64,000 bases of DNA. Source: Allolobophora icterica. Lineage: Eukaryota; Annelida; Clitellata; Crassiclitellata; Lumbricidae. The notes beneath the pieces were generated by a model. It was given only the letters and a program-made list of their open reading frames with translations. It did not search any database and was not told the origin of the DNA. The stretch's first letter is position 1; every line of letters starts with the position of its first letter. Below, piece by piece: positions 37,801 to 56,861 of this stretch. Made by a program: the position numbers and the translations under genes. The DNA is taken from the NCBI GenBank assembly GCA_963556255.1, contig OY744617.1:31482144-31546143 (forward strand), written 5' to 3'.

Positions 37801-37927
37801 ATGGAACTTGATGTGTTATAAACTAGAACTCAGTTATTCATTCTTCTGCAGCGCTGATGATGATGAAGGCGATGACACAAATAATAATGGTGATAAGGTT
37901 TTAGAATGCAGATGTTTTTCATTTAGG

Positions 37928-39352
37928 ATGACGGAACATGTGGATATATTGAATGAAGCAATGGCATCTGGGTTCATCGCTAGCACGTGCCAATTACTTC
38001 CAAAGTCATTTCCCCTTGTTTTTGATAATATGCATCACGTACAACCGTCGGTGAGCACCGCACCAAAAAATTACTCAATTTTGTGTGGCAGCCACGCTGA
38101 GTTCAATATCCGACCCCCAAATTCTTGCATTGATGACCTAGATTACTTGATCGCCAGAGATGATGAGCTGGTCTTCAGTGGCGACTTTCCAGAGTTCCCT
38201 AAGGACATGAGAGGCCTAGCAGACACAATCAGGTTCTACAAGATTGAATCATACAGTGCGTTTCCGGGTTTTGTTCGATTACGACGTTTTGGGGAAATGA
38301 ACTATAATTGGAAATATAAAAAGTATGAATTTAAGCGATCAGCTCCTATAAGCCCATATCGGGTGATAGATTTGAATGCTGTAGCAAATGGGTATTCACG
38401 TTCTGTACTCATCATAAACGATTTACCAAAAATCATTAGTGGTCCAGCAATTAAAAATCGTGATGGTGATTGGCTGGCATGTGATCACGTCGATAGCTTG
38501 TGGTGCCCAAAATGGCCTAAAGAAGCCAAAGGTTGGCTTAAACGACCTAGGCATAATGGATGGCCGACCATTGATACAATCGGCGACGTTACACAAAATG
38601 GTTGTCATTTTGTCTTCGTTAATCATCGTTCTTGCAGAGACGATGAACTACAGTGGAGGTTTTCATTTTCATTGGCTGAGGTAATTTTACTTCAGAGTTG
38701 GACTAAAATTCAACAGATTGTCTACCATTTGTTGAGATTCTTCTGCAAGAGAGAATTAATACAAAAGGATTGTCCAAAGGAGGATGAGATTCTTTGTACG
38801 TATCATTTAAAGACGCTGATGTTATGGACTTGTGAAGAGATGTCGCCGGAATGGTGGAATTCCTCTTCTGTTATTACGATCTGCTGTGAGTTATTGAAGA
38901 AGCTTTCAGACTGGCTACAGAAGAGGCACTGCCCGAACTATTTTATTCCTGAAGCAAATTTATTTCATGAATCATCGAGCTTCACAATCCATGACAAGAC
39001 GAAGGAACGACTAAATGAATTCCGAGATTCTGGCATTCTCTGTCACTGGTTCGTGGAAAATTACATACTGCCAATCATTCGGAGATATTTCAATCTTGAA
39101 AGCACAGTTGAGGTAACCCCACTGTTTGGGGGGTTCTTGCCGCTTCTCTTTAAGTTTTGGAAAGCGACTGAATCGGAATCATTGGATTTATATTTTTATC
39201 TCACATTTACACATTCAAATCGGACAAGTCGTCTTGTAATAAAAGGCGGATTAAGTTCAGGACTGCGATACACCTTCGTAGCTGGAAATTATTCAAGATC
39301 TGTAGAATCGATAAGACACTGCCGACTGAAAGAGCTTTCAACAATAGGCCTA
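37928..39352 (+). CDS. Mab-21-like gene, copy 4, 5' part (interrupted by Polinton)
   Basis: It starts at the ATG aligned with copy 3 and reads in frame into the Polinton terminal repeat, stopping at 39386-39388 (486 codons). It holds the whole nucleotidyltransferase and Mab-21 region: LCGSHAEFNIRPPNSCIDDLD with GS and DxD, a D in CDHVDSLWCPKWP, and WRFSFSLAEV. Upstream the frame stays open to 37808 with an acidic run, as in copy 3. The break falls at codon 474, near the boundary before the TPR-like half, just after TAGGCC. The other part resumes in the same phase at 56862. No other lesion is visible, so disruption is recent. Confidence 0.88.
39347..39352 (+). other. left target-site duplication, GGCCT(A)
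   Basis: GGCCTA here is repeated at 56862-56867. The element's canonical first base A (39352) coincides with the last base of the duplication, so a 5- or 6-bp duplication cannot be told apart; Polintons usually give 6. Confidence 0.85.
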
Positions 39353-39580
39353 GTAGATAGGAGATACAGGAACTGGCGCATTCGCTAGGTGTCGTTCTGA
39401 AAGCTTAAAAACCGTTACAATGAGTGAATCTGAAACCGGAGTTAACGCATTCGCCAGGCGGCGTTCTAAAAGCTTAAAAACCGTTACAAAGAGTGAATCT
39501 CAAACACCAACCCGTTGGTGCTATCAAGGGCCTGCCAGAGGGGAATGGAATGGCCATTCAGGGTAAAGAAATGAGATTAC
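39352..39580 (+). repeat. Polinton left terminal inverted repeat (229 bp)
   Basis: It pairs with 56633-56861 with two mismatches by eye. Inside are two tandem 69-bp sub-repeats (each GCATTCGC ... CTTAAAAACCGTTACA, at 39378 and 39447). It supplies the in-frame stop for the truncated Mab-21 reading frame. Confidence 0.95.
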
Positions 39581-39840
39581 AAGCCTTCTCGTGACCAGCC
39601 AGCCCTTATAAACAGATCGGCTTTAAAAACAGTGCCTATGCTTATAACTCTCCCAGCCCTAAGTCTGCCACCTTCTCATCGTTCTCCTCCAGCACCAGGC
39701 AATTAAAATAACTCAATAGCACACACAACAACACACAGACACACACACAGACACACACACACAGACACACACACACCTACACACCTACACACACATACAT
39801 ACACACATACACAAACACACATACACACATATACTGTCTG

Positions 39841-39873
<33 letters not shown>

Positions 39874-40522
39874 GCAACGCACCGACAGACAAACAAACAG
39901 AAGAGACGCCCATATAGACAGGAACACACACACATACAGTGGCATAGACAGACCTACGCACAGACAGGCCCATACATAAAATTTTAAGTTACAGAATCGG
40001 ATAGAGGGTGAAAAATCCGGAATTTTGCGTACCTACACGGCATACTTCCCTTCATAAATAAAGAAACGCAGCGCTGGCCCATTTAAATCTTCAGCCATGA
40101 AGAACATACTGGGCCAAGCTGCCCATCTTAACGACTGCAGAACAAGCCACCTATCGAGTGTGGCGGAATCATTTGATAATGCGATAGATATAACAAACTG
40201 AAATATGGTTCTTCTCGTAGATGGCACAGTAGCTACATTGGTAACGGCGTTAGGCATGATTGTTACGATCCCAGTTCGCCTCCCGAAGACGGCATGACTT
40301 TTGTAAATACTTTAGTAATTTAAAATCTTGGTCTATCACGGTTGGTATTATACACTGGGACCTTAAATTGCGTAGTTCCGACCCATACGGGCAGCGGTGA
40401 TGAAGATTCTCATCCGATCAATGATCAAGGTCGAGACCATACAGTCGCTATATAAAACACGTACATTTGCATGTTCCCATTTCAGGTTACACGAGGGCTT
40501 AATTGATGCAACCATCATTTGT
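39581..40522. other. non-coding left arm of the Polinton with simple repeats
   Basis: A (CA)n-type repeat runs 39720-39835 and a (TGTC)n run covers 39836-39873. The remainder up to 40522 has no supported gene. This gene-poor arm differs from the tightly packed gene block that follows. Confidence 0.7.
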
Positions 40523-40620
40523 GGGGCGTGGTGGCTCAGTGATAAGTTCGGCGCCTTGTGACCGGAGGGTTGCAGGTTCGAATCCCACTCTAGCCGCTGC
40601 GTACGGACCTTGGGCAAGTC
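40523..40620 (+). mobile_element. truncated tRNA-derived SINE head inside the Polinton
   Basis: It matches the first ~98 bp of the SINE at 33290, with both polymerase III boxes present (GGCTCAGTGAT and GGTTCGAATCC). It stops abruptly at GGGCAAGTC, where the first 124-bp tandem repeat begins. Confidence 0.85.
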
Positions 40621-41460
40621 ACCCCGAAACAAATTTTTCATTGTCAAAAATTCATCAGGCCAAAATCAATATTTACACCTGAAACGTGCAGAAAAATCGT
40701 TTTTACGCTGTGTAAAATTTTTTCACCCATCCCCAAAAACTTTTACCCCGAAACAAATTTTTCATTGCAAAAAATTCATCAGGCCAAAATCAATATTTAC
40801 ACCTGAAACGTGCAGAAAAATCGTTTTTACGCTGTGTAAAATTTTTTCACCCATCCCCAAAAACTTTTACCCCGAAACAAATTTTTCATTGTCAAAAATT
40901 CATCAGGCCAAAAACAATATTTCCACCGGAAACGTGCAGAAAAAGCAATTTTGCTATGTGTATAATTTTTTCACCCATCCCCAAAAACTTTTACCCCGAT
41001 ACAAATTTTTCATTGCCAAAAATTCATCAGGCCAAAATCAATATTTACACCTGAAACGTGCAGAAAAATCGTTTTTACGCTGTGTAAAATTTTTTCACCC
41101 ATCCCCAAAAACTTTTACCCCGAAACAAATTTTTCATTGTCAAAAATTCATCAGGCCAAAAACAATATTTCCACCGGAAACGTGCAGAAAAAGCAATTTT
41201 GCTATGTGTAAAATTTTTTCACCCATCCCCAAAAACTTTTACCCCGAAACAAATTTTTCATTGCCAAAAATTCATCAGGCCAAAATCAATATTTACACCT
41301 GAAACGTGCAGAAAAATCGTTTTTACGCTGTGTAAAATTTTTTCACCCATCCCCAAAAACTTTTACCCCGAAACAAATTTTTCATTGTCAAAAATTCATC
41401 AGGCCAAAAACAATATTTCGAACGAAATCGTGCAGTGAACGCAAATCTACGCTGAGTAAA
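40621..41460 (+). repeat. 124-bp tandem array, about 6.7 units, two alternating subtypes
   Basis: Units start ACCCCGAAAC or ACCCCGATAC at 40621, 40745, 40869, 40993, 41117, 41241 and 41365, exactly 124 bp apart. Subtype A has TTTACACCTGAAACGTGC and subtype B has TTTCCACCGGAAACGTGC; the order is A A B A B A B, with the last decayed. A 230-codon frame across the array is a repeat artefact because 124 is not a multiple of three. Confidence 0.95.
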
Positions 41461-41547
41461 ATTTTCAGCCGGACTTTGAAATTTCAAAACGTGACACTTC
41501 TCGTCGTTTTCTGAATACCATTTTTCGGTCACGTTTTTGGACTTGTG

Positions 41548-41670
41548 AATTATGGAAATCGGGGAACTATGGAAATCGGGGAAATACGGAAATCTGGAAC
41601 CACGGAAATCGGGGAACTGCGGAAATCGGGGCACTACGGAAATCGGGGAACTGGGGAAATCGTACGGCGG
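41548..41670 (+). repeat. minisatellite of GGAAATCGGGGAACTRC-type units
   Basis: Six to seven degenerate ~17-bp units in the Polinton between the 124-bp array and the first gene. Non-coding. Confidence 0.8.
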
Positions 41671-41790
41671 TGGCGCGGTGACCTGCGGAAACTTGAGCAC
41701 GTAAAAAATTATAAATCCGCTAATCGTATGGTGGTGGCGCGGTCGGAACAACAACAGATTCAACGTTCCAACCGCCTACGACGAAAATTT

Positions 41791-42396
41791 TTATATCGTG
41801 GTTCGCGGAGAAGACCCAGCGCTGGTTAGTTTCTTGATTAGTTCTGCCACCATCTGGTCTTTGCTTTGACTCGGCAACTCTTTTTTTCCATTCTTGCTTT
41901 GTATATCACGTTTCATCGTTCTATATTTCTCCTCCTCTCCCAGAATAAGTTTATATTCTTCATCGCTAATAGCCGTGTCTTCCAATGCCTTAGAAATGTG
42001 GTCATGAACAGTGTTTAGCTTACTTTCCGCCAAAATACAAATTTCGTCGTGTTTTGAAGCTTTAGCAACAAAACTTCTACTGACAACATTTCCAATAATA
42101 TCCAGAAAACTCGTCGCTATGGCTAAACCCTCTAGAACAATACCAGGAACAAAACCAATACCAGTGGCTAACATAGCTGCCCCACCCACCCCAGTTCCAA
42201 GACTAACTATAGCAAGGCCGGCCGACGCCCCATTAGCCACATCTACAACCCTCTTATACTTTTTGCACAGTTGTCCCCGACTTATCGCCTCAGACCTCAG
42301 GAATGCTTCTATTTCGCCGATCTTCTGCAAGCGAAATGTTTGCGACGTCGTGTCTGACGAAATTGTTGACTCCATCAGCGGTGGGTACAAAGACAT
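41791..42396 (-). CDS. Polinton hydrophobic protein of unknown function (201 aa)
   Basis: The start is the ATG at 42396, six bases after the upstream gene's stop. The protein has a polar N-terminus (RLQKIGEIEAFLRSEA), then a long glycine- and alanine-rich hydrophobic segment at about residues 52-105 (ASAGLAIVSLGTGVGGAAML onward), then a charged helical tail (about 120-190). This layout suggests membrane insertion or lipid association. I do not recognise the family. It is the last gene in the minus-strand block. Confidence 0.7.
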   Translation of the reverse strand: MSLYPPLMESTISSDTTSQTFRLQKIGEIEAFLRSEAISRGQLCKKYKRVVDVANGASAGLAIVSLGTGVGGAAMLATGIGFVPGIVLEGLAIATSFLDIIGNVVSRSFVAKASKHDEICILAESKLNTVHDHISKALEDTAISDEEYKLILGEEEKYRTMKRDIQSKNGKKELPSQSKDQMVAELIKKLTSAGSSPRTTI

Positions 42397-42402
42397 ACTT
42401 TT

Positions 42403-42948
42403 TTATAGTTGCTCTATCAGTAACGTTACGTTTAACTCAATAGTTGAAGTACTTAAAACGCCTCTCTTTTTTCCTTCAATTCGAAAACTCGTTTGTCCTG
42501 GAATGAATATTGCCCTAGATGCATCAAATTGTCCACTTTGAATGTCAACTGTACGATCGATGCTACCCGCGGCTGTAATAATGCGAACTGACGCATCACC
42601 GGTACTAACACCAAACATTGTAAGCTTCCAGAACCCGCCCTCTAACGAAACCCCCTGATTGGTGGTTTGCAAAGTTATACACGGAAAACGCGCAGCGGTC
42701 AATGGAAGAGTTTGCCACGCAGTCGTGGTTACCGTTCCGGCCGCCGTATAGATATCGCGGTTGTGGTAATCGTCAGACACGAAGTCGATGTGCTGTTGAG
42801 GCACCGCGGTCAATAGCTCTGCGGTGGGCTTCGGGATGTCGTACCCCCAGTGGCCCACATCACCTAGACTGTCTATGCTGTATTTGCACATGTCTATTTC
42901 TCCGTGTTGACGGAGATACCCCCGAATCTTGTAGTGCGCGTCAGTCAT
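42403..42948 (-). CDS. Polinton beta-rich protein of unknown function (181 aa)
   Basis: ATG at 42948, six bases after the fibre gene's stop, with an A-rich leader (AAAAAT). The second half looks like beta-strands with alternating hydrophobic residues (GFWKLTMFGVSTGDASVRII; STIELNVTLLIEQL), like small capsid or fibre-knob domains. Its place beside the fibre-like gene suggests a structural or attachment role, but this is inference. Confidence 0.65.
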   Translation of the reverse strand: MTDAHYKIRGYLRQHGEIDMCKYSIDSLGDVGHWGYDIPKPTAELLTAVPQQHIDFVSDDYHNRDIYTAAGTVTTTAWQTLPLTAARFPCITLQTTNQGVSLEGGFWKLTMFGVSTGDASVRIITAAGSIDRTVDIQSGQFDASRAIFIPGQTSFRIEGKKRGVLSTSTIELNVTLLIEQL

Positions 42949-42954
42949 ATTTTT

Positions 42955-45126
42955 CTATACTACTGACTGTCCCCCGTGTCTAAAATATGTATAGATCTGG
43001 AAGTGTGATATTCCAAAAGTACCTTGTGTTGGGCTGGTGGCCAAGACCACCAGCATGAATTTTTTGTGTACTGTGTCACAAGTGAAGGTGAACTCTTGTG
43101 CAGAATTAGTCAAAGCGACAGTGGAGGAAATGAGAGCAGGGACTCTCTGTGAATCGGTGGTTGGAACCCCATAAAACTTCCAGGACGTGATACGCGGAGC
43201 AGTAGGACTAGATCCCCCGGCCAGACTAACCTTCCATATTCGCACAGGCGTCGGGCATTCAATCATTAAAAAAGTCCCTGTAACCCGATCCCCAATCTGG
43301 GTTCTCGATGTGGACGCCGTCTTCCACTCACCTCTCACACCCGAGTTGAATGCCATATGGGGCGGGTTAGTGGGTAAAGATTCGTTGGCTGAGGCAATAA
43401 AACCCGTTTCGGAAACGTTTCTGGAAAGGGGCGGAATATGGCCGCTGTAGTTGAGAATCTTGATGCCCGTCACGTATCGCCTTTCATTAGCTATCTCACT
43501 GTCCACATACTGCTTGTTAGTCAAGTACTTTGGTCCCGCAGGCGCCGTATCATTATTCATAGTGGCATCAGTGATCAGCTGCGCCACTTGTTTTAAACTC
43601 GCGGCGTCACTATCAGATCCTGGAATTTCTGTTGGTAGCCCAGTCACTCTTTTACCACCCATAGCCAGATCACCGGTCATGGTACTGCCGGATTTGAGCA
43701 CGCACGCGTTCCTGACGATAACATCTTGCTCGTTGGCGTACCTCTTAGCAGCTTCAGCTTTCTGGTCCGCATAGAGTCTAACGGAAGCTCCAATCTCAGC
43801 GTTTTTCACGTCAACGTATCGTTTATTTGTCACATGCAACGGTTCTGTTGGTACTCTATCACTCTTTGTCATGTTGTCGGCGATCAGCTTCGATACTTGT
43901 GCCATACTCGTCGCGTCGCTTTCGGACGTTGCTGCGCCCGTAGGGAGCCCAGTAACTCTTTTACCGCCCATGATTAAATCACCAGTCATTGCATCACCAG
44001 CTTTAAGCACGCATGCGCTCCTAACGATAACATCTTGCTCGTTGGCGTACGTCTTAGCAGCTTCAGCTTTCTGGTCCGCATAGAGTCTAACTGAAGCTCC
44101 AATCTCAGCGTTTTTCGCGTCCACATACCGTTTGTTAGTCAAGTACTTTGGTCCAGCCGGCGCCGTATCATTATTCATAGTGGCGATGGTGATCAGCTGC
44201 GTCACCTGTTTCAAACTCGCGGCGTCGCTATCAGATCCTGGAATTTCTGTTGGGAGCCCAGTCACTCTTTTACCACCCATGGTCAAATCACCAGTCATAG
44301 AATCGCCGCTTTTGAGCACATGCCCGCCTCTTACGATAGCATGCTTCTCGTCCACATATCTTCTAGCGGTGGTGACCTTCTCATCCACGTACTGTCTGTA
44401 AGAAGCGTCGCGGGAATCTACATACCGCTTATTCACCACATGCAACGACTCCGTGGGTACTCTATCGAGTTTTACTAGAGCGCCAGCGACCGCTGTTGAC
44501 ACTTGTTTCCAACTCGCTGCGTCGCTATCGGATCCTGAAATTTCTGTTGGGAGCCCAGTAACTCGGTGGCCACCCATAACTAAACTTCCAGTCATTACAC
44601 CGCCGGATTTGAGCACGCACGCATTCCTGACGATAACATCTTGCTCGTTAACATAACTTTTAACAATAAGGTCCTTGTCATCTGCATACCGCCTAACGGA
44701 ATCTCTCAGCCCCGCATTCTTCTCGTCCGTGTACTGCCTGGCATCGATAAGCTTTTGGTCTGCATGATTTTCGGCCGCGGTCGCCTTCTGGTCCGCGTAT
44801 CGTACCACTTGTGCCCAGCTCGCAGCGTCGCTTTCAGACGCACCAGCGTCTGTGGGCAGCCCAGTAACTTTGTGGCCACCCATTTTTAGAACACCAGACA
44901 TCGTTCCACCGGTGATTTGTAAGTTGTCCTGATCTATGATGTCTGCATAAGCCTTTGTCGCGGCGTCTGTTTCCATCGTGGGCGTTCCCACGTTTGTCAG
45001 TCGAAAACCTCCAGCCGACAGAATTCCCATCATGGTATCACCCGCTTTGTGGACGAGCCCAGCGGCGCTTATCTGCCCCCCTCCCACCCCACCTCCACCG
45101 TCTCTTCCAAATTTATCAACCGGCAT
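42955..45126 (-). CDS. Polinton fibre-like protein with six repeat modules (723 aa)
   Basis: ATG at 45126 directly behind TATATAAAAA. Six modules of the form MTGDLxMGGKRVTGLPT, then DSDAASxxQV and YVDxK, cover roughly residues 30-530; they resemble repeats of phage tail fibres. Between them are charged coiled-coil-like stretches (YADQKAEAAKTYANEQDVIV). The C-terminal ~190 residues are different and beta-rich (VRIWKVSLAGGSS, then RITSWKFYGVP), somewhat like a discoidin or F5/8 C fold, and may bind a receptor. Modules 4 and 6 are nearly identical, indicating recent unequal exchange. The role is inferred from architecture. Confidence 0.75.
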   Translation of the reverse strand: MPVDKFGRDGGGGVGGGQISAAGLVHKAGDTMMGILSAGGFRLTNVGTPTMETDAATKAYADIIDQDNLQITGGTMSGVLKMGGHKVTGLPTDAGASESDAASWAQVVRYADQKATAAENHADQKLIDARQYTDEKNAGLRDSVRRYADDKDLIVKSYVNEQDVIVRNACVLKSGGVMTGSLVMGGHRVTGLPTEISGSDSDAASWKQVSTAVAGALVKLDRVPTESLHVVNKRYVDSRDASYRQYVDEKVTTARRYVDEKHAIVRGGHVLKSGDSMTGDLTMGGKRVTGLPTEIPGSDSDAASLKQVTQLITIATMNNDTAPAGPKYLTNKRYVDAKNAEIGASVRLYADQKAEAAKTYANEQDVIVRSACVLKAGDAMTGDLIMGGKRVTGLPTGAATSESDATSMAQVSKLIADNMTKSDRVPTEPLHVTNKRYVDVKNAEIGASVRLYADQKAEAAKRYANEQDVIVRNACVLKSGSTMTGDLAMGGKRVTGLPTEIPGSDSDAASLKQVAQLITDATMNNDTAPAGPKYLTNKQYVDSEIANERRYVTGIKILNYSGHIPPLSRNVSETGFIASANESLPTNPPHMAFNSGVRGEWKTASTSRTQIGDRVTGTFLMIECPTPVRIWKVSLAGGSSPTAPRITSWKFYGVPTTDSQRVPALISSTVALTNSAQEFTFTCDTVHKKFMLVVLATSPTQGTFGISHFQIYTYFRHGGQSVV

Positions 45127-45154
45127 TTTTTATATACAAAAAGGTGACGGAAGT

Positions 45155-45460
45155 CTAACATAAGTCAAGCACGATATCTTCAAAATTCTTTCCAGCAGCG
45201 AGCTCTATTAGCACGGCTAGGCAGAGATGACCACATACCACATCATCTGGCCCCTGTAGCTGAAATGTTTGTGTTCTTATAGGATTTTTTAAATATCTAG
45301 AAATTTCGAGAGGCGGATCCAGCCCATAACTGTCAAAATAGACGGCTTTTGGTCCATCTATCCAATAGGCGACCCAGTGAGTACCATCACCAGAACCGGA
45401 ATCCAGATTAACAACTCCACACTCCTTCTCACGAGCCACGGCGGGCAGACCATCTCGCAT
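45155..45460 (-). CDS. Polinton adenain-like cysteine protease
   Basis: Adenovirus-type maturation protease. From the first ATG (45460) the protein has 101 residues: GTHWVAY with catalytic His28, Asp43 in YFDSYG, a Gln in QLQGPDD (69), and CGHLC with catalytic Cys80. The frame continues open upstream to 45559 with protein-like sequence including the family's FRGVF segment just before the ATG, but without another start codon. The upstream gene ends at 45526 in the 0 frame and this gene is in the -1 frame, so synthesis by ribosomal frameshifting is the simplest reading (see 45492-45535). The enzyme would cleave capsid precursors. Confidence 0.85.
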   Translation of the reverse strand: MRDGLPAVAREKECGVVNLDSGSGDGTHWVAYWIDGPKAVYFDSYGLDPPLEISRYLKNPIRTQTFQLQGPDDVVCGHLCLAVLIELAAGKNFEDIVLDLC

Positions 45461-45491
45461 GAAAACACCGCGGAAATGCGGCAGCGCTCCG

Positions 45492-45535
45492 GCAACTTTC
45501 TCTATGTCAAAGTTGCTCAGCGGTTTTAGTTTTTT
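45492..45535 (-). other. candidate -1 ribosomal frameshift signal
   Basis: On the minus strand the 0 frame of the 190-residue gene reads GGA CAA AAA AAC TAA. A AAA AAC (45535-45529) is a canonical slippery heptamer in the correct phase and lies directly before the TAA at 45528-45526. Twelve bases on is an 8-bp perfect stem GCAACTTT / AAAGTTGC (45516-45509 and 45499-45492) with a 9-base loop. The -1 frame enters the protease. A sequencing error in the A7 run is the main alternative. Confidence 0.65.
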
Positions 45536-46098
45536 TGTCCGATGTAGAGACCCGATCCTTTACACATTGGGCAACAGCCACCATGAGTCTCCCGCCCGAG
45601 ATATAAACCAGTCCCGCGGACCTGGGCCTCGAGTTCGCGATTGTGACGCGCGGCCTCTGCTAAAGCCGCGTCGTCGATCCGTTTTTTCTCGGCTTGGGCC
45701 GCATCGCTGGCCTGTTTCTTGCGCAGAGCCTCTGCATCGCTGGCCTGTTTGTTGTGCACGGCCTTTGCCACCTCGGCGGCCCCTCCAGCCGCGGCACCCA
45801 CCGCGGTTAACCCGCCAAAAATCAGCGGGAGGAGAGCCAGTAGTGGAAGAAATCCGCCCGATTTTGTCATCTTTTTCAGTTGCGTTTTGGTGAATCTCAG
45901 CTCCATGCCAACGCCTTCCGAAATCTTCTTCACGATTCGGGCGGCTTGAACTTTCGTAAGCGCGAGCTTATCGTCTCCACGAAGCTGGCCATGAGCGAGT
46001 CGGATCGTGGCACCAGTGCCGGCGCGCGCAGCTCTAGCTAATGTTTGCTTTTGCCCTTCGGTCAGTGAAAGGCCGAACGCAACGTATTCAGTTTTCAT
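45526..46098 (-). CDS. Polinton minor-capsid-like protein (190 aa), upstream frame of the protease
   Basis: ATG at 46098 after a TAGATATATTTT leader. Residues 1-80 are a basic region (SLTEGQKQTLARAARAGTGA), followed by a hydrophobic glycine-rich stretch (GGFLPLLALLPLIFGGLTAV, about 82-101), an alanine- and lysine-rich helix, and a CPMCKGSG end. IFGG-L matches the consensus cleaved by adenain, which would release a membrane-active part as in adenovirus protein VI; this is inference. The stop codon directly follows the slippery heptamer. Confidence 0.7.
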   Translation of the reverse strand: MKTEYVAFGLSLTEGQKQTLARAARAGTGATIRLAHGQLRGDDKLALTKVQAARIVKKISEGVGMELRFTKTQLKKMTKSGGFLPLLALLPLIFGGLTAVGAAAGGAAEVAKAVHNKQASDAEALRKKQASDAAQAEKKRIDDAALAEAARHNRELEAQVRGTGLYLGRETHGGCCPMCKGSGLYIGQKN

Positions 46099-46156
46099 TT
46101 TTGGAAAAAATATATCTAAAAGAGGGCCTTGTATCTAAATGTGAAAAAACCGATTT

Positions 46157-47452
46157 CTAGTAGACGACGTTGAATTTGCTGCCATCCGATTCAAAATTCA
46201 GGAGTCGGTCGCTGATCAGGACGGCATATGCTGTCGTATTATTTGGTACCCCTTCGTTAAAGTCCACCTTGATTTGTATGTCCTGTACAGAGGTTTTAAG
46301 TCGTTCAGATTGCCTGCGCACGTCCAGAACGAAGATCGGAAACAAATCTACAAATTCGATTGGTGTCGGTTGGCATGACGATTCACGCGCGTCTATGCCG
46401 CAATATTCTTCCTTGAAGTCACGTAGGGCCTTGTAAGCGCGAGAGGTTGTCCTCTTGGTGAAGTCGAGATTCATGTCAACCACGGGGTAGCGATCGGTGT
46501 TGAGCATAGCGAATATGTTGCGAACCTGTGCATGGTCAAACAGTGCCGGATTCTGGCCTTGATGTGCATTCTTTCCAGTCTGAAAAGCAACAAGAATCCA
46601 GCGTGGCTTTTCCGTGCCCGACTTAACGCTCAAACGCCAGGAAAAAGTCGTCGCTCGTGGCACCGCAATGTTGTCGCATTGCATGGCGCGGAATGCCACA
46701 GGTACCTTAACCTTGGCTTCAATCTGCTTCATAAGCATGCTTTTATACTCCAAAGCGGGTATTATATGCGGCATGAACCAGGAGAGTTTAGTCAGCATGA
46801 TCTGGCCATTGGCCGCTGCGGCTTCCTTGAAGATCGCGTCTGCATCCCCCTGCCGGCTCAGCAGTAAAGAGTGTTTGATCCCGTATACGACCTTGTGATA
46901 ATCATCGCAAAAACCGAATAGATGTCTTAAGGGAACGATGAATGAAAACGTTCCAATAGGGACGGGTTTTCCAATGATCATCAGTCGACGGGCCTCGAAG
47001 CCGATATTCGCAGCCGCCGCCGCCGCACTCGTGTCCTTCTGCCAACACATGTTTAAACCTTCGCCTTTGGAAAAATCATCGCCGTATACCAGCATGCCTT
47101 TCATCGTCGTGGCTTGCCCAGGTGACATGACATTCTCTATCTCGGTATTGTTAGCCAGGTATCGAATTTGAGAAAACATGTACGGGATAGCATTGTTGAT
47201 GAATGACACCAACGAGTCTGCGTTGTAAGCCGCGCCAGTTGATGTAATCCTGCCCTCCACAAGAAGGTAGCTCTTGGAAGGCTGTGTGAAAATGTCTTGG
47301 TTCTGGATGTCTATCTGTATGGCCTGACCGTTGTTAATAGCCGCAGGGTTTTGTGATTCATACTCGCGGTATTCAAACGATTCGATGCTATTATCATCGG
47401 GTACCGCCGAAGCGATGTCCAACATTTCACTCGGCACGTCAAATGCCGCCAT
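46157..47452 (-). CDS. Polinton major capsid protein, double jelly-roll type (431 aa)
   Basis: The longer frame to 47473 starts with TTG; the ATG at 47452, preceded by CTATAATA, is the likely start. The sequence has the family's early IESFEYREYESQNP region, SYLLVEGRI, and late FVDLFPIFVLDVRRQSERLK and AYAVLISDRLLNFESDGSKF. It resembles a widespread invertebrate family linked to Polinton capsids; length is near that of the short type. It would form the icosahedral shell with the penton protein at 48047. No frame damage. Confidence 0.75.
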   Translation of the reverse strand: MAAFDVPSEMLDIASAVPDDNSIESFEYREYESQNPAAINNGQAIQIDIQNQDIFTQPSKSYLLVEGRITSTGAAYNADSLVSFINNAIPYMFSQIRYLANNTEIENVMSPGQATTMKGMLVYGDDFSKGEGLNMCWQKDTSAAAAAANIGFEARRLMIIGKPVPIGTFSFIVPLRHLFGFCDDYHKVVYGIKHSLLLSRQGDADAIFKEAAAANGQIMLTKLSWFMPHIIPALEYKSMLMKQIEAKVKVPVAFRAMQCDNIAVPRATTFSWRLSVKSGTEKPRWILVAFQTGKNAHQGQNPALFDHAQVRNIFAMLNTDRYPVVDMNLDFTKRTTSRAYKALRDFKEEYCGIDARESSCQPTPIEFVDLFPIFVLDVRRQSERLKTSVQDIQIKVDFNEGVPNNTTAYAVLISDRLLNFESDGSKFNVVY

Positions 47453-47565
47453 TATTATAGCTAAAAAGTTCAAGCTTCAATTATTAATCATGCTGTAAAT
47501 GAAATTCATGTGTGGTGGGTAAAGCATTTTTGCGTTTTATGAATTAGTCGGAAATTTTTTTTATT

Positions 47566-48024
47566 TTATTTTGCGAGAAACAGACCCCTACCACCACGAC
47601 TCGGCTTTATAGTTTTGAAACCGGATCCAGCAATGCGGCTGTTTATGTCGGCCATTGCCGGAACAACGGGTGGCGGACTCACAGCCAGTTGTTTTAAGTA
47701 TTCGATGCTCTTGTCGCTGAGCGCCTTCTCCAAAGGTGCGGGAACAACAGGCGCGGCAGATGAATTTTCATTTCGTAAATGAGCTTCATTTACGGCCGCA
47801 GCGCGTCTCGCTTTCACGGCATCAACAATTTGCCTGACGGCAGATGCTGTTGTGGCGCCGGCTTTCGCGACATTACCAACCGCCTTGGCAACGTTTGTGA
47901 TTGTGCCTCTATTCGCCGAAATGAAGGAGCCTGCACGGCCAAGGAAACCCGCGATTTTGGGTATCCAGTCGAAAAGTCCACCACCCACGACACGACGCCG
48001 CTTTTTAATTCCAAGAACAAACAT
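47566..48024 (-). CDS. Polinton small basic protein, capsid-associated (152 aa)
   Basis: The frame extends to 48054, but that overlaps the upstream gene; the ATG at 48024 is preferred. The N-terminus is very basic (GIKKRRRVVGGG) and is followed by an amphipathic helix-like stretch (LFDWIPKIAGFLGRAGSFI) and an alanine-rich part. IAGS-G near the C-terminus fits the (I/L/M)xGx-G adenain consensus. By layout it resembles adenoviral core or pVI-type precursors, an inference. Confidence 0.65.
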   Translation of the reverse strand: MFVLGIKKRRRVVGGGLFDWIPKIAGFLGRAGSFISANRGTITNVAKAVGNVAKAGATTASAVRQIVDAVKARRAAAVNEAHLRNENSSAAPVVPAPLEKALSDKSIEYLKQLAVSPPPVVPAMADINSRIAGSGFKTIKPSRGGRGLFLAK

Positions 48025-48046
48025 GAGAATATTTAAGTGTGAAAAT

Positions 48047-48838
48047 CTACGCACTGCGGATGTGAAACCTTATAGTTACTGTCTCACCGCGGAGGTTTAA
48101 TTGTTCACCATTCTGGTCGGTCAGCCACACACGAATGCCCTGTACGTTACCAGCCGGTGCAACTGGTAGGTACACCAGATTTTTCGGAGACTCGATTACC
48201 TTGTAGCCGGGCGACACATCCGGGAAAAAACTGTAGATTACTGGCAGCTGGCTACCATTTCGATACGATCCAGAGATAATGTCACAATTTACCAGGATTG
48301 TGTCCACGCGGAGAATATCGACTGGATTTTCTCCCTCTTTATAACCACTACCAAGCCTCTGAGGGTTAAAACCGAGCATTTGCCTGATGGTAGATTGAGC
48401 CATATTTACCTTATATAGGGCATTCGTAATTTTTATGAAGGCGCGTAGGGTAGATGCGTTAGCTCCTATGGTAATAGGAGAATTAAAGCCGAGTGGTGCC
48501 ACACCCGTCGGAGAATTTTGCTTTTCTAACTGCCTACCGATTTCATCATTAATCTGTGCGATCTCGTAGCTTCCGTCGGGCAAAATGATCGTCTTCCACG
48601 TCACACCATTGTCGGTGCTGTAGACGAACTTGTTATTTGTGCTATCGATGTTGGGAATCGAATTATAAGTTTCAAGATTGACCAAAGCAAGCTCAAAGCG
48701 TCTTTTTGGATCCAGGTACAGCGGTGGTGAGAAAGCCGTGGTCCACCCTGTAGTATCTGAGGAAACAACTATACTAAAATTTTCCTTAGGCTGTAAAAGT
48801 TCTCTAATTTCTTCGAGCAGTTTCTCCGAGCGTTCCAT
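48047..48838 (-). CDS. Polinton minor capsid (penton-like) protein, single jelly roll (263 aa)
   Basis: ATG at 48838. It has an N-terminal helix (ERSEKLLEEIRELLQ), then TTGWTTAFSPPLYLDP, FELALVNLETYNSIPNIDST, FVYSTDNGVTWKTIILPDGSYE, and ends with ETVTIRFHIRS. This order matches Polinton penton proteins as I know them. It would occupy the fivefold vertices. It lies between the small basic protein and a structural protein, with short gaps. Confidence 0.75.
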   Translation of the reverse strand: MERSEKLLEEIRELLQPKENFSIVVSSDTTGWTTAFSPPLYLDPKRRFELALVNLETYNSIPNIDSTNNKFVYSTDNGVTWKTIILPDGSYEIAQINDEIGRQLEKQNSPTGVAPLGFNSPITIGANASTLRAFIKITNALYKVNMAQSTIRQMLGFNPQRLGSGYKEGENPVDILRVDTILVNCDIISGSYRNGSQLPVIYSFFPDVSPGYKVIESPKNLVYLPVAPAGNVQGIRVWLTDQNGEQLNLRGETVTIRFHIRSA

Positions 48839-48848
48839 CTTGTGTGCT

Positions 48849-49970
48849 TTATTTTATGAGCATGTTTCTATTCAATTCGAGTGCCAGCTCTTTGGAGATC
48901 GCACCGGAACGCAGTAACTCGTCGAGAATGGCGGAGATTTCGTTGCCGAGACCAGTGTTTCCCGCGGCCCTAGAGGCCACCAAAAGCTGCAACCTCTCTA
49001 CCAGGGCGTTTGGATCGTTGTAAAATTGCACCGCGCCGCCTCGAATCAGCTGGAACTTTTTACTTTTCCGGCCATGAATAGGCAGACCAGACATCTGTAC
49101 GAGCTTTTTAAAAGTTTCAATTGCTTGAGGCGAATATTGCTTAGTCTTAACGAAGCGTTTCGTTAACAGGCTGAACAACGACTCATCGGCCGGAGACTCG
49201 AGAACGAGGTTACCACCTTTAAACACTCTCAGTCTACCGGCAGACAACGCGACGGGGTCAACGGAGAGCTCACCCAAGGCGTTACCTTGTAATTTCAGAG
49301 GAACGGCTGGAACACTGAAACCCTTTCCTTTTTTAGTGAGGGCGTGGCCTTTCAATAGCAAACGAATTCGATCTCTGTAGTCCTGTAGGACGCCGATATC
49401 TACGGCCAGCGCATGTACCTTTTCTTCGTCTCCGTTCTTATTGGCCTTCCTTTTCTCTTTGCCCAGGGTGTGGCGATTATAATAATTTACGCCTTCGATT
49501 ATCTGTTTCACAGCTGCCGTGTCGTTCAGGTCGAGCTCGCTCGGAGGGGTAAAACCGTGCCGCCTGATTGTATCGACGTTGAGATGTCTGTTTGGGTGGA
49601 CGAGCAATGCTTCCGCTGGAGCAGATGCTCCTGCGGCGGGGTGTGCCTCAATCGCTGGAATAGCCGTTGGAGCAGTTGCTCCAACGGAATCACCGAACAA
49701 CGCCGCTATCGGGTTAAAATTAGCAGACTCTGAAATCTGCGCCGGCAAATCCTGTAAAGCGCTGGTAACTTTCTGCAGCTCCTTAGACGTAGCCGCCTGG
49801 GATTCAGCTGTGGCTGTGGCGATTGGTTTGAAAAGCTTTGCCGCATCGTACTGAAGATTGGCTTCACCGAGCTTCTCGTCCACGAAACGCTGTCTCAAGC
49901 GATTTCTCCGAGCTAAATAATCCTGAGTTAACGCGTCTCGCTCCTGTTTAGAAGAAACCTTTGTCCACAT
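48849..49970 (-). CDS. Polinton conserved structural-type protein (373 aa)
   Basis: ATG at 49970. The N-terminal third is charged and probably coiled coil (ERDALTQDYLARRNRLRQRF; ATSKELQKVTSALQDL). The middle has HPNRHLNVDTIRRHGFTPPS, and the C-terminal part is globular, with FSLLTKRFVKTKQYSPQAI and GLPIHGRKSKKFQLIRGG. Similar proteins recur in Polintons of other animals, but their function is not known to me. Confidence 0.65.
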   Translation of the reverse strand: MWTKVSSKQERDALTQDYLARRNRLRQRFVDEKLGEANLQYDAAKLFKPIATATAESQAATSKELQKVTSALQDLPAQISESANFNPIAALFGDSVGATAPTAIPAIEAHPAAGASAPAEALLVHPNRHLNVDTIRRHGFTPPSELDLNDTAAVKQIIEGVNYYNRHTLGKEKRKANKNGDEEKVHALAVDIGVLQDYRDRIRLLLKGHALTKKGKGFSVPAVPLKLQGNALGELSVDPVALSAGRLRVFKGGNLVLESPADESLFSLLTKRFVKTKQYSPQAIETFKKLVQMSGLPIHGRKSKKFQLIRGGAVQFYNDPNALVERLQLLVASRAAGNTGLGNEISAILDELLRSGAISKELALELNRNMLIK

Positions 49971-50010
49971 CGTGGTTGTATGTCGACTATATCTTGCCTA
50001 TATTGTGTCT

Positions 50011-50697
50011 TTAAATACTTGCCTTGGGCTTATAGAAGCGATCGAACCCGCAACGATATTTTCCGTCGTACACTTTAGACGTCAAATCTATGACTGCGAA
50101 TCCATATGGCTGGGCAGCACACTCGCTGAAAAATGAACGGAACTCATCGAAAGACATGTCGCCGCCCACGAACGTATCGTGAATGGCTCGCAAATTTTTA
50201 CTGTCTTGGTTGAAGAGGACGATAAGATTGGCATTGTCGCGGATGGCTTGCTTCGGAATTCGAAAATAATTCTGTGTTAAGTAGAAGCAGTCCGCGCCAC
50301 CGTGTCGACCCATAGTGAAATACCTTTCGATGGGCGACTGTTTTTCAAGCATGACGTCATCGAAAACTAGAAGGCTTCTGGCATTCTTATTTAATGATTC
50401 AACTGGAACTATTTCATCTGAGCAAGAGTGAAAGGAAGCCACTTCCTTACCGGCAACTTTTTCGAGTTCTGTTATCCAGTCCCGAAGAAACTGATATTTT
50501 TCCTGTCCCAGAGACTTTGAGTATAGATAGAGCCGGTCAAAACGTAGGTACCCCTTCTTCAGAAGGAGGTTAAGCAGTAGGTTTGTTTTCCCACATCCGC
50601 TAGGCCCGCAGATTATACACCGTATGCTGGATGGCAACAACCAATGGTGGTGTTTTTTCCCATCGTCGGCTTCGAGATCGAAATTTGTTATTTCCAT
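50011..50697 (-). CDS. Polinton DNA-packaging ATPase, FtsK/HerA type (228 aa)
   Basis: The frame to 50844 begins with TTG; the ATG at 50697 leaves a normal N-terminus. Walker A is GPSGCGKT (residues 31-38), Walker B is SLLVFDDV (about 115), and a polar sensor motif LTQNYF follows. It would pump the DNA into capsids. It is divergent from the phospholipase gene: their ATGs are separated by only 38 bp. Confidence 0.9.
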   Translation of the reverse strand: MEITNFDLEADDGKKHHHWLLPSSIRCIICGPSGCGKTNLLLNLLLKKGYLRFDRLYLYSKSLGQEKYQFLRDWITELEKVAGKEVASFHSCSDEIVPVESLNKNARSLLVFDDVMLEKQSPIERYFTMGRHGGADCFYLTQNYFRIPKQAIRDNANLIVLFNQDSKNLRAIHDTFVGGDMSFDEFRSFFSECAAQPYGFAVIDLTSKVYDGKYRCGFDRFYKPKASI

Positions 50698-50735
50698 ATA
50701 GAGACAACGAGTTATGATTGTATTCAACGAAAACA
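50698..50735. promoter_or_regulatory. 38-bp divergent intergenic region
   Basis: It separates the ATPase ATG (minus) and the phospholipase ATG (plus). Any shared promoter must overlap one of the coding starts. No TATA box is obvious within it. Confidence 0.4.
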
Positions 50736-51302
50736 ATGTATTGCCTACGATGTAAGAAACATACTGAGACTTCAAATGAAACAATTGTCGAGTTACGAAA
50801 CGGTCGGCCAGCCAAGAAGGGAACCTGTGCCGTCTGCGGTGCAAAGAAGAGCCAAATTTTGCCTTCTAAAGTGCGAAAGCATAAGTCTCGTGAGACTTAT
50901 GGAGGCTCGCTACTGAATAGGGCCCTCAACGCTCTACCTCTACCAGAAATGCATATGAGCCTTCCATCCGGTATGTCTTCGGAAGATAATCCGGGAGGTT
51001 CTTTTCAGAACACGGGAAAGTACTCTTACTGTGGACCATTCACAAAACTCGACAAACGGCTGTCACAGCGATATCACGGTGTTAATCAGCTCGACCGTGC
51101 GTGCCTCCACCACGATGTGGCTTACGCAGTTCATAAAGATACTCCGGGGCGTAACCACGCAGATGACATCCTCGCTGCAGCCGCGTCGAAGATCGCACTC
51201 ACCGATGAAACTCCGGATTATGAGAAGAAGGATGCCCGGCTCGTATCGGCCATTATGTCAGCAAAGTCGAGGCTAGGGATGGGTGTTGGACGGCGGCGCT
51301 AA
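50736..51302 (+). CDS. Polinton zinc-ribbon plus phospholipase A2-like protein (188 aa)
   Basis: An upstream TTG extension exists, but the ATG at 50736 is preferred. Residues 1-45 form a zinc ribbon (CLRCKKHTE ... GTCAVCGAKKSQ) like the DUF5679 family. The C-terminal part has the phospholipase A2 signature: YCGPFTKLDKRL as the calcium loop, and DRACLHHDVAYA with the catalytic His-Asp pair. The domain resembles those of parvovirus VP1, where it helps virions leave endosomes; such a role here is inference. The TAA overlaps an ATG of the integrase frame by one base. Confidence 0.85.
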   Translation: MYCLRCKKHTETSNETIVELRNGRPAKKGTCAVCGAKKSQILPSKVRKHKSRETYGGSLLNRALNALPLPEMHMSLPSGMSSEDNPGGSFQNTGKYSYCGPFTKLDKRLSQRYHGVNQLDRACLHHDVAYAVHKDTPGRNHADDILAAAASKIALTDETPDYEKKDARLVSAIMSAKSRLGMGVGRRR

Positions 51303-51355
51303 TGAAAATCATTTGTGTATGTGTTTACCTGTTTGTAATATATAGTATTACTGAA

Positions 51356-52369
51356 ATGTCTAAGCACCTTTCAGCCGTCTATTACAGCCCTAGAGGTTAC
51401 TGGCGAGGTAAGGCTGCGGTGAAGAAACTAGCCTCAGCCGCCAACGTTTCCGAGGCGGAGGCTCGTGATTGGCTGAAGAAACAAGCGGTGTGGCAGATTT
51501 ATCTTCCCGTTCCACGCCGCATACCGCGTCCAAAGTTTGAGGAAAATCGACCAAACGCCGTACACCAAGCCGATCTCTTGTTTTTACCTCACGATAAAGT
51601 AGGTCGAAAGACTTATAAATACGCTCTCACTGTTGTTGATGTTGCCTCACGATACAAAGAAGCTGAACCGTTGATAAACAAAAGTGCGACCGAAGTCGCC
51701 GCCGCTTTAAGCCGGATCTATAAGAGGGGCCCATTAACTTGGCCTCGACTCTTTCAGGTCGATCCTGGACGCGAATTTATGGGTGATTTTACACCGTTGC
51801 TGACGAAGCACGACGTTCTTGTAAGACGCGGACAGGCCGGAAATCATCGCCAACAGGGCATCGTTGAACGCTTTAACCGTACTCTAGCTGAGCGACTTTT
51901 CGGTGCCCAGTACGCTCAGGAATTGCTCCTGGCTGCAAGGGGTTCATCCGAACGGTCGGTGGAATGGGTTCGCCGGATGCCCGAAGTTGTTGCTGCACTA
52001 AACGATGAGCCGACGCGCTTGCTCGAGATGAAGCCGGTTGAAGCGATGAAAGCTGCTAAAGTGACACAGAAGCCCTCTCATTCACAAATGAAAACTCGTT
52101 TGTGGGGAATGGATGAGCCTATTCTCGGACACGACGTTCTCGTCCGATATTTGTACGCTCCCGGCGAGCTCGAAGGTGGAAGCAAACGAGCCACCGACCC
52201 TAACTGGTCGCTCACCATCCACGCTATTTTGGATGTTGTTCGGCGGGCTGGTCAACCGGCTTTGTACCATCTAGTTGATGGACCTGGCCGCGGTTTTGTC
52301 CGTGAGGAGCTGCTTCTGGTGCCTATGGGCACTGAGTTACCCCCCGATAGAATACTCAACCGTCGTTGA
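51356..52369 (+). CDS. Polinton retroviral-type integrase (337 aa)
   Basis: The frame opens at the ATG at 51302, but the ATG at 51356 (MSKHLSAVYYSPRGYWRG) fits the family, and a TAATATATAG stretch precedes it. Catalytic DDE residues: D71 in HQADLLFL, D135 in QVDPGREF, E170 in QGIVERFNRT. The C-terminus has an SH3- or chromodomain-like part (LGHDVLVRYLYAPG). It inserts the element and makes the short target duplications. It ends tail-to-tail with the polymerase, overlapping 14 bp. Confidence 0.92.
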   Translation: MSKHLSAVYYSPRGYWRGKAAVKKLASAANVSEAEARDWLKKQAVWQIYLPVPRRIPRPKFEENRPNAVHQADLLFLPHDKVGRKTYKYALTVVDVASRYKEAEPLINKSATEVAAALSRIYKRGPLTWPRLFQVDPGREFMGDFTPLLTKHDVLVRRGQAGNHRQQGIVERFNRTLAERLFGAQYAQELLLAARGSSERSVEWVRRMPEVVAALNDEPTRLLEMKPVEAMKAAKVTQKPSHSQMKTRLWGMDEPILGHDVLVRYLYAPGELEGGSKRATDPNWSLTIHAILDVVRRAGQPALYHLVDGPGRGFVREELLLVPMGTELPPDRILNRR

Positions 52370-55300
52370 TTTTGTAGTGCCCGTATGCCAGCGTTGTTAT
52401 CCCATCGGCCTCTATCCACTTTTTTGTGTCTAATGGAGAGAGGCTGATCTTATTCTGCTCGTACACTCCGATCTGGTGGTCGTGGCTTCGAATCACGACT
52501 TGTGTGTGCCGCATCTCTTCTCGTTCGAACAGGCATTCCTTGTATAGCTCGTGGTGCAGATCCTTCTTGACAACTGCTCTCTGAACGCCTTTAGCTTTCC
52601 TGATCTCTGAACCACCCGATTTTAAGATCGAGTACATCTTCGGACGCAGTCCCACGAATTCGGCTATGGCAACTCCGTTACATTCATCTTTGAACTTGCC
52701 CACGACTTTCTTGTTCTCGACGCCGTAGTACGGGCTGTCTCTAGGAAACTCACTAAAGTCGTATGAATGTTTTTTGTTCCACATATCGGCATAGGCGTCC
52801 GGAGTTTCCACCTGAAATAAGAGGCTATCTGTGTCTGTGTATAAGAGTTGAGCATTGTTGCCGTACTCGTTTTTCACATCGTTGTACCAGAAGTCGTACA
52901 TCAGATGCTTGCTGAGGTCGAGGACAGCCTGGCCGACATATACAGGTCTGTTTAACTTGAGCTTGTTCTTCAAACTGTGAATCGCGGCGAGTTGGTCGTT
53001 GAAGATTTTGTGTGATATGTAGGCCGGGTCAGCAATTAGTTTACGAAGTTTGTCAACTTTTGAGGTCGGTACCAGGTTAACTCTGATTCTTTTTCTAAGA
53101 TTTTCCATGGTTTTTCCGAAAACTGCATTATTAGCCAGTTTGAAGAAGTCTTTTTCAAATTCTGACGTTGCCTTCGCCCTCAATTTCGTATTCATCTCGA
53201 TGTATGGAGCCATCCATGCCTCCTGTCTGAATTTAATGGCACGATGAATTTTAGAAACTCGTAGGCCCAACGAGTGGTAGAGCTTGAGATTTCTATAATG
53301 GACTACATAACGCTCCTTGGGTCGTAGGCTGGGTACTAACTTCACATGCTTTGTGAACTTGCCTCCCAACTCGTTCATAAGCACATTCTGATAGTCACTC
53401 AACCACTCCTCTTGGACTGTCAGGGTCTCCGGTGCTAGGGGATAGTCGCTATGTGATTCGTGGAGGTGCTCCGGGTACTCAAGATCGACTTCGAGCAGGA
53501 AGCCTTCAGGCGCGTCGTCTGGAGTTTCCAACACTTCATCGAGAGTTGGACTTTCCCAGCTAAATCCTCCAACTGGCAATGACTGTTGCATCGCCCAGCC
53601 ATAGAGGTTATTAGCATCGAGGTACATGATCCAGTTGTCTGGCTTCGTGGTATCGTGATCTGGGCATTGCGGATTGTTAGCCTTTGCGAAGCGCTTAGAT
53701 ACCATCGAAATTCCACCTCGGAGACCGTTCTCTACAAATAAGTGCATGTCTATATCGGTGAGAAGTTCGAGCTCGATTTTCGTCTTTTTCAGCAAAGCGT
53801 CCCAGGCCATTCCTGGCAGGCTGAAGTAGTTAGCCGGGTCCAGACTGTAGTGTTTCATCGATGTGTTTCTGAAGGTCTCGAATACATAGGCTAGTAGGAG
53901 TACATCCGTACGGAGATACAAGTCGTGATAGTCACCCAGATTCTTACATTCGAATTCATCCCATACTCTTTGAGCGTGTTGATAATCCTCATCAGAGATG
54001 TTCTCTCGGGACAGCCTGCTGTAGAACGCTTCTTTGGGTGGAAGTCGGTCTTCTTCGAAGCGGTGGTAATCGTCAATGTGCTCGTAACAATATACGCCCT
54101 TTCGCCTCAAAAGATCTAGTTTTGTCCTATCATCATGAACGAAATTTTCCTTTATATATGCCGTTGTCACTTTCAAATCCTCTAGCGACAGATTTCCTGA
54201 TAATTTATCCAACGAGCTGTTTAGAAACTGGAGGCTGTCGATGAACTGTAGTTGTCCTATGTTGAATGTCATGTACTTCTCCATATTGTTTGGAATACAG
54301 TTAATTTCAGTTTCCTCATCCTGCGCGGCCTCACAGCTACCTATCGCTTGCATTATGAGGTGGCTGTCGTAACCTCGGAGATTGTGGAAGACCACCGGTA
54401 GCTTACACTTATCGGGATATATTCGAAGTTTGAGGTTGCAGGCGTTGTGAGCGGCACCTCGGTACTTACCGGTAATGTGACAGTGGTCGCGAACTCTATC
54501 CTCTTCGAGCGTTTCTCCGCAGATATGACATTCAGTAGCCTCGCGGAATGATTGGCGATCAACTGCTGACATAACCATCTTAGCTGGGGTGGCCAGCCTT
54601 TGTTTGATAGTGGCTAGCTCGCCTTGTAGTCGTTGTAGGAACTCTTGCACAGCGTTCTCTCCACGATACAGCACCGGCTTCTTCGTGCGACCGTCGCATC
54701 GAACTACTATATAACAAAAACTACATGGTTTCTGCTCAGCTATCTGTCTAGTGTTGCTCTCGTTGGGGTTCATGGCTGCACCTTCGACTGGTATGTTTAG
54801 AGCCTCGAAGTCCGCGTAAATAATATACGGAGTGCGCATCTGTTTGTGATGGTTCTGGAATTTTAGGATATTTTCATCCTCTTTTGGCATCTCAATCCGC
54901 TGAGGCTTCTCACTGATGCCCTGGCAATCTGTGATATGGGCATCCAGCAAGTCTTGTCTACAGAATATGTGTAGGCAGCGACGACATGGGTGTTTCTTGT
55001 GCTTGTCTTTGCTATTTTGATGAAGAATTCGGCCAAGGTCTTTAATCCAGACGTAGTGGTAATCCTCACCTTTAACTAATAGTAGAAGATCGATATTATA
55101 GTCTCTATTGGTCTGCTTTGAGACATAAATCGGGTACAGCCCTTCATTCCATCCGAAGACCGATACGGACACCATCGGGTTCTGACGCTCGAACTTGCCG
55201 ACATCTGTGACCTTCACTGGAAATTCTATTCCGTCGAAGTTTAGCTCGAGGAGGTGGGCACGATACTTAGTTGGGCGTTGAGGGTCCTTATCTACTGGAT

Positions 55301-56096: not shown

Positions 56097-56256
56097 AGTT
56101 ATAAATTAGTTTATACTACTGTGGCAAACTTTTCTTTAATATAATAATTATGTCGTTTGTTCAAAATGAAATTTTTGTTTACTGATATTCGATTGACGCT
56201 TGCTCATCTGTATTACCTCAATACAATAACTATGTCGTTTGTTCAAATGATAATTT
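56097..56256. repeat. intergenic region with an ~40-bp direct repeat
   Basis: ATGTCGTTTGTTCAAA begins at 56150 and again at 56232, each followed by an ATTTTT-rich stretch and ACTGATAT. The second copy runs into the 3' end of the next gene. It could be promoter sequence for the polymerase. Confidence 0.7.
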
Positions 56257-56532
56257 TTATTCTACTGATATATTTGATAGTCGCTTCCATTCCCTATTAA
56301 ATTCACGGACTAACCCACCACGCCGTATTCTTGATTGTATAGCATAATAGCCACACTTCATACACTCACCCAAGCGGTTTTTGATACCCCTCCCACATTT
56401 AGCGCAAGGTTTTGTCCCGCAACCGTTTCGCAGTCGTGCCAAATGCTTGAAACAGTACTCCCCAATGCATCTGTGGCAGCAGAGAGTTGTTTTGCCTATC
56501 ATAAGCCATTTGCAAAAGTTTTGCCCTAACAT
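56257..56532 (-). CDS. Polinton small cysteine-rich zinc-binding protein (91 aa)
   Basis: ATG at 56532, 100 bp from the right terminal repeat. Cysteines are spaced as CCHRC, GEYC, CGTKPCAKCG and CMKC, enough for two zinc sites, and the C-terminus is basic (SRIRRGGLVREFNREWKRL). It is the gene nearest the right end, upstream of the polymerase on the same strand. DNA binding or regulation is plausible; I do not recognise the family. Confidence 0.6.
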   Translation of the reverse strand: MLGQNFCKWLMIGKTTLCCHRCIGEYCFKHLARLRNGCGTKPCAKCGRGIKNRLGECMKCGYYAIQSRIRRGGLVREFNREWKRLSNISVE

Positions 56533-56632
56533 TATGTTTTATGTATACCACAACCTATTCATTTATTTAAATTGAAAAATGGCCCGGTTTGGGCCGGCCT
56601 CGTGGGAGGTTCTCGGCCGGCAGCAAACGTTG

Positions 56633-56861
56633 GTAATCTCATTTCTTTACCCTGAATGACCATTCCATTCCCCTCTGGCAGGCCCTTGATAGCACCAACG
56701 GGTTGGTGTTTCAGATTCACTCTTTGTAACGGTTTTTAAGCTTTTAGAACGCCGCCTGGCGAATGCGTTAACTCCGGTTTCAGATTCACTCATTGTAACG
56801 GTTTTTAAGCTTTCAGAACGACACCTAGCGAATGCGCCAGTTCCTGTATCTCCTATCTACT
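56633..56861 (-). repeat. Polinton right terminal inverted repeat (229 bp)
   Basis: Mirror of 39352-39580. On the plus strand it holds an ATG at 56832 that opens directly into the 3' part of Mab-21 copy 4. Confidence 0.95.

Follow-up and report, generated by a model that had tools for sequence, protein, structure and literature searches.

A predicted −1 ribosomal frameshift linking a pX/mu-like core protein gene to the adenain-like protease frame of an annelid Polinton

In retroviruses of the MMTV and HTLV type, the −1 frame at the end of a gene for a virion protein encodes the protease, which lacks a start codon of its own, is reached at A AAA AAC and is made as a fusion with the virion protein. 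The Polinton locus described here shares this layout, with the fusion as a prediction. The partners differ, however, since gag is joined to an aspartic protease in the retroviruses, whereas the Polinton is a DNA element that carries an adenain-fold cysteine protease next to a pX-like partner. It also departs from the retroviral model in that the 0-frame stop directly follows the heptamer, and in that a simple scan found no pseudoknot. In adenoviruses, the cofactor of adenain derives from a core protein, and the protease and the core proteins are separate genes, unlike the arrangement proposed below. Adenain has been crystallised with an 11-residue cofactor, according to PDB entry titles, and the adenovirus protease with pVI/pX (1avp, 1nln) resembles our locus both in its fold and in its pX-like partner. 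The same protease family occurs in the Polintons grouped with P0019 and in the vertebrate Mavericks. In the former, the protease has its own start codon where the protease studied here has the slip site; for the latter, the available text of PMC8097293 gives pro as an ordinary ORF. The nearest precedent is a passage of PMC11071296 that gives slippery sites suggested by KnotInFrame for certain adintovirus Penton ORFs and considers a similar Hexon–Adenain relationship possible. The adintoviruses belong to the same broad virus lineage, and they are alike in the predicted −1 frameshift, which in one case ends in adenain. However, their partner is hexon and not pX, and the proposal, as far as the available portion of that paper goes, occupies a single sentence that gives neither sites nor conservation and leaves the clade unstated.

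The window, by which we mean the whole stretch of 64,000 nucleotides analysed from Allolobophora icterica, contains a complete Polinton at 39352–56861 (no strand assigned), bounded by terminal inverted repeat arms of 236 nt each (39352–39587 and 56626–56861) that are 98% complementary. Pfam searches identified PolB (PF03175), an rve integrase, an A32-like ATPase and a double jelly-roll capsid protein. With its terminal inverted repeats, protein-primed-type PolB, integrase, ATPase, double jelly-roll capsid and adenain-like protease, the element is a Polinton/Maverick. On the minus strand, the major capsid gene (46157–47452; PF21738, E 4.4e-54) is followed by a gene of 190 codons (45526–46098), and this in turn by the adenain-like protease frame (45155–45559), which spans 134 codons from stop to stop. 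The 190-residue product of the upstream gene, which defines the 0 frame, ends in ...CKGSGLYIGQKN before its stop and resembles the pX/mu core protein. Its own Adeno_PX match has an E value of 0.023 and 15 bits, set against a cut-off of 25. A homology search with the gene plus six extra codons at its 5′ end returned 78 proteins, and PF05829 (adenovirus pX/mu) is precomputed on 17 of these.

The 3′ end of the upstream gene reads GGA CAA AAA AAC TAA. The slippery heptamer A AAA AAC (45529–45535, minus strand) lies in the 0 frame at codon 188 and overlaps a run of seven A (45530–45536, minus strand); the 0-frame stop TAA (45526–45528, minus strand) stands immediately 3′ of it. The protease frame is −1 relative to the upstream gene, whose ATG is at 46098; it is limited upstream by a −1-frame TAA (45560–45562, minus strand) and ends with the stop at 45155. 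The part predicted to be used runs from the slip site at 45535 to that stop. The preliminary description had stated that the protease frame overlaps its upstream neighbour in the −1 frame at A AAA AAC, with the stop at once behind, and that it has no start codon ahead of its conserved N-terminal segment; both statements are borne out by the sequence. In the codon list of the frame, no ATG, GTG or TTG occurs before residue 34, where the first ATG (45458–45460, minus strand) falls within a strand of the model, E29–34. Two hallmarks of a retroviral-type −1 site are thereby present, namely an X XXY YYZ heptamer that is read in the 0 frame and placed in the overlap, and a downstream frame in −1 that has no start codon of its own. 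The available text of PMC5009743 places A_AAA_AAC with the heptamers on which mammalian ribosomes shift most. It is the sole strict heptamer of the upstream gene. When the codons of this gene were shuffled 100,000 times, a strict heptamer appeared within the last 12 codons in 2.6% of the shuffles, and A AAA AAC immediately before the stop in 0.016%. Elsewhere in the element, 16 strict heptamers are spread across nine of the 12 other frames tested, and the heptamer by itself therefore means little.

A perfect 8-bp stem with a 9-nt loop, 12 bases downstream of the heptamer, had been put forward as a further mark of the site. The stem, a possible stimulator, is present at 45492–45516 on the minus strand with the spacer of 12 nt (arms GCAACTTT at 45516–45509 and AAAGTTGC at 45499–45492), but its importance found no support. 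A stem of equal geometry occurs in 136 of 20,000 random 60-mers drawn from the element, and the 45-nt folding energy at the stem ranks 70th of 1165 windows. The folding z values are −0.03 for 86 nt and −0.93 for 121 nt, and we rejected the stem as proof of frameshifting on these statistics. The minimum-energy fold of the 121 nt offers an alternative, a longer helix (45485–45522, minus strand) that adds four outer base pairs, CGCU/AGCG (45522–45519/45488–45485), to the 8-bp stem and begins 6 nt past the heptamer. This distance falls within the 5–9 nt given in the available text of PMC5009743 as the commonly studied spacing between slip site and structure. A scan for simple H-type pseudoknots (stems of at least four uninterrupted pairs, loop 1 of up to 8 nt, loop 3 of up to 24 nt; bulged or longer knots fall outside it) found none in the window or in L001, a distant relative considered below, in which the fold 3′ of the slip has a z of −0.33. 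The 8-bp stem is thus real yet only mildly unusual, and the evidence for a stimulator is weak.

The protease has the adenain/Peptidase C5 fold, with catalytic His and Cys regions. Pfam assigned no family to the protease of the window itself; PF00770 was found in 23 of 38 alignment members at E values of up to 1, the best being 0.0029. In the AF2 model, pLDDT is below 50 at residues 1–8, and the block mean reaches 92 at residues 11–20. A structure search with this one model against the pdb_via and viral libraries aligned residue 1 or 2 of adenain with residue 11–13 of the model. Order in the modelled fold sets in at about the slip codons, and adenain of known structure starts 1–3 residues past them.

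Relatives at the protein level show how far the junction is shared. The protease search returned 143 proteases, and among the best 120 of these, which were listed, many of the closest carry KK and then PLSNFD within a few residues, and many others begin only at an internal MRD. Among the 22 closest homologs of the upstream gene (P0121–P0142), 11 end in KN directly before the stop. The rest comprise one ending in KNH, one ending in PKK, two that read on in the third frame (P0123 and P0139), one that runs on (P0134) and six that are short or divergent; the third-frame and run-on cases indicate a variable A run, whether through decay or through error. As an observation apart, the distant upstream homologs P0195 and P0196 end in QSKN and HSKN, which could hide A AAA AAY plus stop. 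No fused pX–protease protein was found among the 78 upstream homologs, as judged by their lengths and last 45 residues.

The slip-site heptamers of the close relatives were deduced from peptides and not read as DNA. Upstream protein and protease were assigned to one contig where longest contig and source matched, as for P0121 with P0001 (1356, jgi) and P0124 with P0007 (13171, ena). The only DNA that fits both peptides has a pyrimidine and then a stop behind an A run of eight in the first pair and of six in the second, in the −1 phase both times; a third matched pair, P0018/P0129, gives no overlap peptide. When upstream tails were taken as six residues plus stop, at least one of them could be matched by ten of the 198 listed proteases. 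Eight of them fit at the KK register before PLSN, and the other two fit elsewhere, by chance. Moreover, when back-translated in the 0 frame, 10 of the 14 KK-type extensions can yield GxGL[YF]L, with which upstream proteins usually end; eight among 87 other proteases can do so, and 371 among 28,000 residue shuffles. The 14 were picked for their KK, and the KK count itself is no evidence. The extensions of P0002, P0011, P0014 and P0223 cannot spell this motif.

One relative could be read as DNA. Profile searches of viral contigs yielded a single contig, IMGVR_UViG_3300046323_000841 (L001, L002, L003), while a profile search of genome contigs with the protease alignment and a tblastn of the capsid against phages gave no match. 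L001 is a distant metagenomic contig that encodes an ATPase and, besides a capsid-size ORF, a protease that is 41% identical to ours in the best segment (hhalign probability 99.8%). Its upstream gene (5330–5953), with the tail T K K K N P E F before the stop, contains A AAA AAC at 5935–5941 within a run of 11 A, and the protease frame is again −1, open from 5932. The hhalign probability of the upstream gene against the pX family is 10.8%, and it is not securely a pX homolog; the A11 run may be misassembled. A comparison of related Polintons for a conserved heptamer and phase had been suggested at the outset, and both recur: slip site and −1 phase appear conserved in eight of the 198 proteases by peptide deduction, two of them paired, and in L001 by DNA.

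Taken together, the conserved phase and heptamer, the missing start codon and a fold that begins at the slip support the view, already taken in the preliminary description, that the protease is a −1 frameshift extension of the upstream gene, and we consider it likely that this Polinton makes its protease by programmed −1 ribosomal frameshifting. Ribosomes on the mRNA of the abundant pX/mu-like core protein would arrive at A AAA AAC, where most would stop at the adjoining TAA. On a minority, the tRNAs of the P and A sites would shift back together by one base, and translation would go on in the protease frame to give a pX–protease fusion reading ...GQKN-LKPLSNF.... The gains might be a low, fixed dose of protease and its packaging together with the core protein, and the pX part could act in cis as the cofactor required by adenain. 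We infer the slippage, its rate, any contribution by the stem and the purpose of the fusion.

Another possibility would be that the protease starts independently, through leaky scanning or reinitiation. The start codon could then be the CUG of residue 14, some other near-cognate triplet or the AUG of residue 34. The CTG at residue 14 adjoins the beginning of adenain, seven relatives have an ATG at a neighbouring residue, and P0017 resembles a stop/start overlap, its peptide start MKKVP forcing a TGA that overlaps the start (NTGA, as deduced from the peptide). A start at residue 34 was nevertheless rejected, as it would remove helix 16–23 and most of strand 29–34 of the model, despite P13, L14, S15, N16 and D18 being invariant in a 14-row alignment. 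L001 contains neither ATG nor CTG before FRGVFM, the nearest to start codons being ATC and ATT. In P0007, where the upstream residue is Met, the first codon chosen by the gene caller must be GTG. Nor would an independent start account for the recurrence of A AAA AAY and of one and the same −1 phase, and we regard it as unlikely.

Slippage during transcription of the A run would act in a different way, adding an extra A to some transcripts so that a normal ribosome reads from pX into the protease. Runs of seven A here, eight in P0121/P0001 and 11 in L001 would suit such a process. However, six A are probably too few for slippage by RNA polymerase II, and P0124/P0007 has six only; moreover, the whole heptamer recurs together with its following pyrimidine, as tandem tRNA slippage needs. 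We consider transcriptional slippage distinctly improbable. The homopolymer at the site and the other phases of P0123 and P0139 might instead point to a frame break caused by mutation, or by a homopolymer error, in a dying copy. Against this, the other core genes are open at full length, peptides unique to the −1 frame are conserved, and the same phase is kept by relatives with different run lengths, A6, A7, A8 and A11 alike. A homopolymer artefact was rejected on the last ground, and a dying copy has very little to recommend it. Hardly credible, finally, is splicing of an upstream exon that carries an ATG to the protease frame, for which adenovirus late transcripts, which are spliced, offer a model, as it leaves the heptamer, the phase and the KN ends unexplained.

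Given that programmed frameshifting is the preferred reading, its distribution among relatives deserves attention. In a tree of 104 rows and 103 columns, composed of the window and 103 hand-picked proteases of the 198 listed, the window falls in a clade of 34 rows (support 99/98). The KK register is seen in 14 of these (13 labelled FS, and P0005), 12 lack a listed start before the internal MRD, and eight are fragments or ambiguous. A frameshift arrangement would explain why gene callers shorten the proteases of this clade. Two of the eight, P0009 and P0017, may start on their own, P0017 possibly by stop/start overlap instead of frameshifting. ATG-started proteases in related elements had been named beforehand as evidence against the frameshift. 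Such relatives exist, as seven rows starting with MPLSNFD, but they are confined to a separate neighbouring group, which includes the KK-type P0015, indicating that the arrangement is lineage-specific and not wrong. In one listing of 78 relatives, the more distant members mostly have their own Met-led extension, for example MISIKN...KPLSNF. Judging from this mixed distribution of KK-type and Met-led relatives, a frameshift seems to take the place of an ATG start and vice versa.

What emerges is a conserved, lineage-specific arrangement for making adenain by a predicted −1 frameshift, a known type of recoding in a kind of element for which we found one predictive sentence. The preliminary description knew of no such case in Polintons. 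In the open-licence literature, we found no frameshift-made protease or pX–protease fusion in Polintons, and the available portions of PMC8097293, PMC5601938, PMC11071308, PMC12567637, PMC8363768, PMC10120064 and PMC12721341 contain no such frameshift site. The idea is nonetheless not entirely new, given the sentence on possible Hexon–Adenain fusions in the available text of PMC11071296. A broader proposal would be that a conserved gag-pro-like frameshift couples adenain to pX widely in Polintons and allied elements (the window clade, P0015, P0023 and L001), with lineages switching repeatedly between frameshift and ATG start, and that the fusion sets the dose of protease and brings it into the particle along with the partner that activates it; we advance this tentatively, at somewhat less than even likelihood. 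If true, virion maturation by recoding would be a convergent invention of retroviruses and DNA transposon-viruses. A conserved recoding site would further show that selection acts on the ratio of core protein to protease, and hence that particle assembly matters to these elements, the virions of which were unobserved as of 2021 according to the available text of PMC8097293.

The surroundings of the junction offer several minor observations. Directly 3′ of the protease or one gene further, both the window (42955–45126, minus strand) and L001 (7182–9692) encode a repetitive protein with GG/GN..V/I..L...DAA(S/T).. repeats that resemble those of phage tail fibres; that of the window is built of four copies of about 300 nt. 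Near the left end of the Polinton, a tandem array at 40497–41540 shows a 300-nt register seven times, with a spacing of 124 nt, and a gene or fragment of the Mab-21 family (37802–39388, plus strand) terminates near the left terminal repeat. One ORF of the Polinton (50718–51302, plus strand) fuses a phospholipase A2-like domain (PF08398) to DUF5679.
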